Origin: Ligula intestinalis
Taxonomy: Eukaryota > Platyhelminthes > Cestoda > Diphyllobothriidea > Diphyllobothriidae
Assembly: GCA_036362985.1 (NCBI GenBank)
Contig: JAYGXS010000003.1
Coordinates: forward strand, 37,075,738 to 37,139,737
DNA: 64,000 nt
Direction of reading: 5' to 3'
Under the pieces are notes generated by a model. That model did not search any database, had not been told where the DNA came from, and worked only from the letters and a program-made list of their open reading frames with translations. Shown piece by piece: positions 30,746 to 50,014 of this stretch (the stretch's first letter is position 1; each line of letters starts with the position of its first letter). The position numbers were made by a program, and so were the translations under genes.

Positions 30746-32435
30746 TTACCCGGATGCGTCTCTTGTTGTGCTGTCGGACGTTGAGCCAGAAAAGTTAGTA
30801 TAAAGTCCCTGTTCATTCTCGCCATGTCCCAAATTAGCAGCAAATGAGCCGAGATGCGAAAACCAGGGCTGAGATGATCTTCCATTGACCTTAAATAGTC
30901 GCAGCGCCTCGTTTTCCGCCTCAATCGTTTGTTCCGGCACAGCAGCCGTGACCGAAGCAGAGGAAGTGGCCGAGGCGGAGGAGGAAGAAGAGGAGAGGCG
31001 ACACTGACTGGTGCCGCCACCGCCGCCGGCAATACCCAGTTTGGACACCAACTCCCTTTCTGCTTCCAGTTTTCGGTACTCCAGACCGTCTGGTTTCTGT
31101 CCGTGGTGGCTGAGCATACTCTGGTAATCGCTGAAGGCTCCGACACCAGGCTCAGCTTTGGAAGGCAGAGGAATAAGGTTCGTTTGTTGTAAGGGGTATC
31201 CTTGGCTCAACAGTGTTTCTTTTGCCGGTTCCATTCCGGGGTAGTTGGTATTCGGACTATGAATAACTCGAGTCGCCCCTTCGTAGAGACGTTCGATCTG
31301 CAGGGTTTCCGAGTCGGGAGACTGAGTGTCGGAACCGGGGCAACCGTATTCCTGTTGGTTCTGTCCGCTGGCTGCAGCGACTACAGCTGCAGCCGCCACA
31401 GCCGCTGAATACGCCTCATAGGCCGAACTGTAATCACCATTCATGCCGTGGATTAGGGGATTGTACTGAGGATGCACGGCGGAGTAGCCGAGAGCCTGCT
31501 GATCTGCCGTCATCGCCGACATCACCCCAGCGCTGAGATCGAAGTCAACTTCTCGTTTCCGCCGCAGGCCCCCATGTGTCTCCAAGTCCCAGACTCGAGG
31601 TGACGTCTGACCAGCCTCGTATCCTCGAACCAACTGATTTGGGTATCCGCAGGAGGAGGCATAGGTTTGTTGGAAGAGGGAGTATTCGGAGAGGCGTGCA
31701 TCTGCTGTCTGCACAGCGGGCGGATTTCGGCTGGAGCTTCTAGGTACTCCGAAAAACCCCAGAGCGGGGTTTCGCGTAAGAAGGTTTCGATAGGCGTACC
31801 AGCTACTGTTGTTGTTGTTGTTGTTGTTGGCACTGCCGTTGCCGCTGTCTCCCGCCTGCTTAGTGCCTCGTACACTATAGGGAGGAGCAGGTCGACCGGC
31901 CTTGTTTGCGGTTGCTGACTTCAGCTGAGGCTTACGACGTCTGGTAGTCTGCAAGTAGTTTTTCAGCTGGTTGCGGAAACGACGATGAGTATTGCCACCA
32001 CTACCTAGACCACCACCGCCGCCGTTGCGAGTGTTGTTGGTTGTCGAGTCTATTTTCGGCCCAGTCGTTAGTCTTGCTGTCGTCTCGCTGGATTCCTTCT
32101 GTGACGCAGATATTGGAAAGTCTTCCCAGAGCTTCCGTCTGTTGGCCTCGGTTACCTCGTGTGTGGAGTTAATTGTTGCTGTTTCCTGAATGTCATCCAG
32201 ATAGAGGGATTTAATCTCCTTGTACGTAGAGGCCTTCGAGCTGTCTGGGGAATGTTGCTGTTGTTGTGTGGAGTCAGGGCCGGCGGCAGTGGCATCGTTG
32301 CTGCTTTCAACTGTTGTGCCAGTGCAGAAGTCTGAGGTATCGTCCTCCGAAAGTAGGGTCTCAGGTTCCAGCAGGGGAAAAGGCAGTTTATACTCCGAAT
32401 TACGTCGATAGTAGAGTTCGTTGCCCTCGGAATCA
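30746..32435 (-). CDS. ahr: AhR exon 10: long C-terminal region
   Basis: A single open exon of 562 codons starting at TTTTTAG|T with DDSEGNELYYRRNSEYKLPF, matching the start of the vertebrate post-PAS region (DEEG...R...KLPF). The rest is low-complexity and family-variable: QQQQ, a Gly run near 32010, a basic patch RRFRNQLKNY...TTRRRKPQLK near 31925-31990, an Asn run from AAC repeats near 31810, Ala-rich and Ser-rich runs. No sequence-level transactivation homology is visible, although this part carries activation function in known AhRs. The end is GCATCCGGGTAA: the stop overlaps a donor-like GG|GTAAGC at 30750/30749, so the protein may continue into another exon. Alternatively the gene stops here, with ATTAAA at 30674-30679. 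Confidence 0.9.

Positions 32436-50014: not shown

Follow-up and report, generated by a model that had tools for sequence, protein, structure and literature searches.

Structure of the predicted gene

The window, a 64,000-nucleotide stretch of contig JAYGXS010000003.1 of the tapeworm Ligula intestinalis, contains on its minus strand (58545-28508) a gene for a basic helix-loop-helix-PAS (bHLH-PAS) protein of the aryl hydrocarbon receptor (AHR) family. We translated the window and joined open frames at GT-AG sites, which gave a predicted model of 12 exons spanning 30038 bases, with 3075 bases of coding sequence including the stop, and a product of 1024 residues (Table 1). All 11 introns are GT-AG and the frame is kept throughout; intron lengths range from 123 to 8447 bases, with a run of ten N inside intron 5. 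Exon 1, which has the start codon and a KRRR stretch that we take to be a nuclear localisation signal, lies 8.4 kb upstream of the bHLH exon. The insert in exon 7, between the end of PAS-A and PAS-B, varies in length among parasitic flatworm sequences and is mostly replaced by gaps in those of the planarian, nemertean and mussel.

Table 1. Exons of the AHR gene model and other features of the window
Feature	Position	Strand	Description
Exon 1	58481..58545	-	ATG MVDDWVIKTMYATKRRRKNPK; basic KRRR stretch; ends in phase 2, donor gtaagt
Exon 2	49816..50033	-	bHLH domain (KSNPSKRHRERLN...); phase 2 to 1; Pfam HLH
Exon 3	46285..46385	-	Linker to PAS-A; phase 1 to 0; collinear with P0001
Exon 4	45528..45617	-	PAS-A, ALNGF...LGFHQ; phase 0 to 0; absent exactly from Schistocephalus P0003
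Exon 5	40083..40218	-	PAS-A, SDILHQSVMELIHSEDREEF...; phase 0 to 1; PAS fold (Pfam)
Exon 6	37457..37530	-	AYSHLLQRCFTVRFRCLLDNTSGFI; phase 1 to 0; acceptor tatttcggaag; junction VISP-AYSHLLQRCF identical in P0001
Exon 7	34343..34650	-	PAS-A end, long low-complexity insert, PAS-B start (FKTKHTLDLTITSMDS); phase 0 to 2
Exon 8	33104..33210	-	PAS-B middle; phase 2 to 1; PAS_3 and PAS_11
Exon 9	32559..32700	-	PAS-B end with His and Trp pocket residues (AHRWLSKNGNWIWLQSRL); phase 1 to 2
Exon 10	30750..32435	-	Long C-terminal region, partly low complexity; phase 2 to 2; donor gtaagc from 30749; collinear with P0001 and P0002
Exon 11	28871..28943	-	GYFPELSNHNIYNDSLLPWTHFENR; phase 2 to 0; related tail in 7/9 other cestode sequences
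Exon 12	28508..28582	-	QTICIDDASLCDASRYQLGFTATT and stop; its 24 residues identical in D. latus P0002
N-terminal motif	58516..58545	-	MVDDWVIKTM, ahead of MYATKRRR
Open frame	7275..8258	+	Reverse transcriptase domain (RVT_1, 3.7e-11)
Open frame	60971..61474	-	Weak RVT_1 match (30.0 bits, cut-off 29.6)
Tandem repeat	24473..25198		362-base unit, two copies, 99% alike

Our first chain consisted of ten in-phase exons running from 58545 to a stop at 30746 and encoding 976 residues. The protein was seen to continue past this stop when we compared it with records from Sparganum and Dibothriocephalus, and two further exons were then found downstream; the stop at 30746 arises by reading on into intron 10 and lies just behind a GG/GTAAGC donor. 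Early candidate acceptors near 37515 proved out of phase, and we considered one more exon between exons 5 and 6; it is not needed, since the acceptor ending at 37531 restores the phase and matches P0001.

The locus is longer than the initial annotation had it. That model, of ten exons and 970 residues over about 19 kb between 50014 and 30746, was truncated at both ends, leaving out exon 1 (58545-58481) and the exons at 28943-28871 and 28582-28508, so that 30.0 kb and 12 exons are now predicted. Between 50014 and 30746 we find only exons 2 to 10, that is, 9 exons with 2847 bases and 948 residues. The description of a phase-consistent minus-strand bHLH-PAS gene was correct, and introns do lie at the four named motifs, all of them GT-AG, in phase 1 after the bHLH and in phase 0 before ALNGF, after LGFHQ and after SGFI.

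Residues 10-1024 of the joined protein are collinear with protein SprV_0301169200 of Sparganum proliferum (P0001; 84%, 1704 bits, 10 gap openings), which argues that the exon chain is not due to chance. A record from Dibothriocephalus latus (P0002) is 95% identical (476/499) over the longest block. Both are orthologues from the Diphyllobothriidae. By protein identity the genome belongs to a diphyllobothriid tapeworm, close to the D. latus record but probably distinct from it; a search of the genome for COX1 (PF00115) gave no match. The second Met is the first residue of P0001. In P0002 the bHLH is missing, and the letters after VISP resemble intron 5 of the window, so this record looks mispredicted. 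The gene prediction P0003, from Schistocephalus, has five long gaps relative to our model, four of which have an edge on an exon boundary: residues 129-158 are exactly exon 4, 200-228 end with exon 6, 359-414 end at the codon common to exons 9 and 10, and 976-1024 start at the codon common to exons 10 and 11. The fifth, 12-27, fits no exon boundary.

We considered whether the chain is right in the middle of the gene while the true transcript differs at its ends, through another first exon, trans-splicing upstream of exon 1 or alternative last exons. The model is a prediction from DNA and protein records, the starts of related records differ (MYATKRRR in P0001 versus MVDDWVIKTM in P0004), and two of the nine other cestode sequences, P0003 and P0006, stop near the end of exon 10. 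However, the letters of exon 1 are found again in P0004 to P0007, and tails resembling exons 11-12 are present in the remaining seven cestode sequences. We therefore regard different ends as distinctly unlikely.

The start motif itself has a characteristic distribution. The window's ten residues recur unchanged in records of tapeworm, schistosome, nemertean and mussel, and the form MV[DE]DWVIKTM precedes YATKRRR in 16 of 121 aligned sequences (the window and the best 120 of 1336 proteins). These 16 are the window, four other cestodes, six schistosome-type flukes, one nemertean and four molluscs, with no arthropod and no bird. The other listed sequences start at MYATKRRR (11), have an L[GS]T[VM] form (64, many arthropods included), lack YATKRRR (25) or have other letters (5). 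From its letters, MV[DE]DWVIKTM looks like a conserved spiralian start.

Elsewhere in the window, the open frame at 7275-8258 is probably a retrotransposon remnant or copy, judging by its domain match, and that at 60971-61474 is, by eye, presumably Penelope-like. Searches of the window with Rfam (at the gathering threshold) and for tRNA genes each gave 0 matches.

Assignment to the AHR/spineless class

Pfam HLH, PAS, PAS_3 and PAS_11 all score above cut-off in the predicted protein, which thus combines bHLH, PAS-A and PAS-B, with the basic stretch YATKRRR (encoded in exon 1) preceding the bHLH. A protein database search reduced 7984 scored candidates to 1336 proteins; among the best 120 listed, the closest are cestode records, followed by those of flukes and planarians, and many bear the name aryl hydrocarbon receptor. 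We also searched the PDB with the first 439 residues, obtaining 62 distinct sequences at E up to 0.001. The best 11 of the 60 listed are AHR, AHR repressor or spineless, and human AHR scores 268.5 bits, as against 83.9 for NPAS3, 82.8 for HIF1A and 56.5 for ARNT. No SIM chain is among these 60 sequences, and SIM was compared in a bHLH tree only. The tree has 22 sequences (the window, 15 chosen from the 120 listed proteins, one PDB AHR and five others) and 53 columns covering the bHLH only, and it includes neither ARNT nor BMAL; in it, 17 AHR sequences, with the Grus AHR on a long branch, stand apart from five SIM/NPAS/HIF sequences with support of 100/100. The basic region NPSKRHR is identical in the window and the 16 other AHR sequences of this tree.

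A bHLH search of the genome (644 Mb, 2377 contigs) found two places, the AHR locus and a bHLH exon on contig C5 (L002, 1369-2040, minus strand) that we take from its letters to be SIM-like. The C5 exon scores best with NPAS3 (71.3), ahead of AHR repressor (38.0) and AHR (34.6), and therefore the PDB comparison separates bHLH-PAS classes.

Membership of another class (SIM, TRH/NPAS, HIF or ARNT) would accommodate the domain order, which bHLH-PAS classes have in common, a weak NPAS4-bHLH match below the Pfam cut-off, and public records that name some relatives single-minded, HIF or CLOCK; in our judgement, those relatives are misnamed. Against this stand the wide margin for AHR in the PDB scores, the separation in the bHLH tree and the C5 control. 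We consider any other class extremely improbable and have rejected it. On sequence criteria, we conclude that AHR/spineless has its tapeworm orthologue at this locus. Its initial identification as a flatworm AHR thus agrees with the PDB scores, the names of its relatives and the tree with which it has now been compared.

The orthologue is a well-conserved, ordinary one in a family already known in flatworms. The AHR of parasitic flatworms had been called little described. That holds for function, in that no functional study of a flatworm AHR appears among the titles and abstract openings of the literature matches listed; it does not hold for sequences, since the name AHR is already attached to records from Echinococcus, Taenia, Mesocestoides, Hymenolepis and Schistosoma, and 'arh' to one from a planarian.

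Residues of the PAS-B cavity

PAS-A and PAS-B are complete in the predicted protein. We examined the residues of the PAS-B cavity in the alignment of 121 sequences, numbered through Grus AHR, which we take to be its only vertebrate sequence, with human letters taken from the PDB alignment. In the window, C300 (mouse C294) is replaced by Met, F351 by His, L353 (mouse L347) by Trp and A367 by Leu; F351 and A367 presumably line the human AHR cavity. Hence, the Cys and Leu gatekeepers known from mouse are absent, with Met and Trp in their place.

These substitutions are shared across the flatworms listed, 21 sequences including the window, although these are not independent of one another (there are several from Schistosoma and two from Mesocestoides). 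P0003 and P0016 are gapped at 351, 353 and 367. All 19 ungapped sequences have His at 351, Trp at 353 and Leu, Ile or Val at 367. Among the 100 non-flatworm sequences listed, ten of them unnamed, position 351 is Tyr in 99 and Phe in one; position 353 is Trp in 12 (ten named molluscs and two unnamed) and Phe, Leu, Tyr, Ile, Val or Met in the others; and position 367 is Ser, Ala, Cys, Met or Thr, never Leu, Ile or Val. Thus, His at 351 and an aliphatic residue at 367 are confined to flatworms among the 121 sequences. The C300 site is Met in ten of the flatworm sequences and Ile in ten, the latter being all of the flukes (10/10). His occurs at the position of human H291 in 21 of 21 flatworm sequences, and position 381 is Ala in the window; both sites presumably have a role in AHR. 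A planarian has the same His and Trp, so these residues are not tied to gut parasitism, and parasitism is not their cause.

The closest experimental counterpart is the fly PAS-B domain, as described in excerpts of PMC9585082. There, M284 and Y336 replace mouse C294 and L347 and may hinder ligands; a variant with both mouse residues bound two ligands. The cavity is smaller in the fly (440 versus 680 cubic angstroms, the mouse value being from a homology model), and most AHR ligands draw no response from fly AHR. Nevertheless, wild-type fly PAS-B still binds alpha-naphthoflavone (about 240 nM), so that a cavity lined with bulky side chains may yet be open. The same source places 11 fly residues at the ARNT interface. 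We located the six that its excerpts name (D278, Y305, D306, Y310, L313 and W343) on the window by counting along the Aedes and Tribolium sequences; five of the six are identical, and Y310 is Pro.

The remodelling of the cavity is seen directly in its residues; a loss of dioxin- or indole-type ligand binding would be its likely consequence.

Proposed function and comparison with known systems

Because NPSKRHR matches vertebrate and insect AHRs, the most likely target of the protein is the AHR half-site, and its most likely partner ARNT. With a cavity so remodelled that dioxin- or indole-type ligands may no longer be bound, it would act mainly as a ligand-independent developmental regulator rather than a xenobiotic sensor, and its probable site of action would be neurons or sensory cells, on the pattern of fly and nematode. 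We think this is probably the role of the tapeworm AHR/spineless orthologue, with moderate confidence. Two observations together favour it: the flatworms compared share the pocket change, and in a fluke TCDD is reported not to induce P450. A single P450 is reported for parasitic flatworms, and in Opisthorchis felineus TCDD left the mRNA of this only P450 unchanged (PMC4666407, excerpts). The test is indirect, since constitutively high P450 expression is offered by its authors as a possible reason for the missing induction. Invertebrate AHRs are described as working mostly in neurons (fly, nematode), and TCDD, tryptophan and some of the metabolites of tryptophan failed to activate AHR-1 of Caenorhabditis elegans (PMC9137885, excerpts). 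The reference list of that paper includes a title reporting that clam AHR does not bind TCDD or beta-naphthoflavone. As far as the available text shows, other literature touches the subject from a distance: work on Schistosoma treats AHR's partner ARNT, another paper an ARNT-like annotated gene under selection, and one further paper fish P450 only.

A stronger form of this proposal is that the phylum-wide rebuilt cavity plugs the ligand site, making flatworm AHR, the planarian one included, obligately ligand-independent; we hold this to be possible but doubtful. Conversely, the same gene might serve to detect indoles made by gut microbes, or other small molecules, as the initial annotation suggested. 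PAS-B is complete and retains the His at the H291 position, with Ala at 381 in the window; fly PAS-B binds alpha-naphthoflavone; and in C. elegans, indole effects on lifespan are said to act via AHR-1, whose reporter is lowered by indole and raised by pyocyanin, phenazine and some PAHs, with FICZ a negative modulator and pyocyanin the strongest activator (PMC9137885). In molluscs, rotifers and arthropods, AhR and CYP mRNA levels reportedly rise on exposure to PAHs (PMC9137885). However, the AHR-1 effects may be indirect, tryptophan and some of its metabolites are not modulators, fly AHR is unresponsive to most AHR ligands, TCDD did not induce the fluke P450, and the window's cavity holds Met, His, Trp and Leu. 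A sensory role of this kind therefore appears unlikely. Regulation of detoxification through XRE sites in GST promoters, with no classical ligand, would fit the GCGTG cores and predicted AhR/ARNT sites in the distal promoter of Taenia solium Ts24gst, and such sites are also mentioned for GST promoters of Echinococcus granulosus (PMC11073501, excerpts). These sites are predictions over 5 kb, in which a 5-base core is often expected by chance, and the excerpts of PMC11073501 give no AHR dependence for them; we judge this role very unlikely.

The ligand-independent developmental role thus remains our preferred reading. The gene model of this conserved transcription factor is now complete for a diphyllobothriid tapeworm, with two truncated ends corrected, and the question of chemical sensing by flatworm AHR is reducible to named residues of PAS-B. 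If the cavity is plugged, this would speak for an older developmental factor to which vertebrates added xenobiotic sensing.

Vertebrate AHR (human, mouse) has the NPSKRHR basic region and the PAS-A/PAS-B layout found here. The human cavity, with Cys, Phe, Leu and Ala and known ligand binding, differs from the Met, His, Trp and Leu of the window. The human gene is said to have 11 exons (PMC8836075, excerpts) as against the 12 modelled here; the initial annotation had likened the intron positions to those of human AHR, and the literature matches as available, a paper on amphioxus included, contained no map of the human positions. Drosophila spineless is of the same bHLH-PAS class, with Met at the first gatekeeper site and ARNT contact residues as in the window; it has Tyr where the window has Trp and, by the Aedes and Tribolium sequences, Tyr where the window has His. 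AHR records from Echinococcus multilocularis, Taenia, Mesocestoides and Schistosoma have the same domain order, the MVDDWVIKTMYATKRRR start and the His/Trp pocket residues, but their C-terminal region has diverged from the window's. The arh of the free-living planarian Schmidtea mediterranea (P0014) is an orthologue (58% over 44% of the query) with the same His and Trp, although at 635 residues it lacks most of the long C-terminal region.
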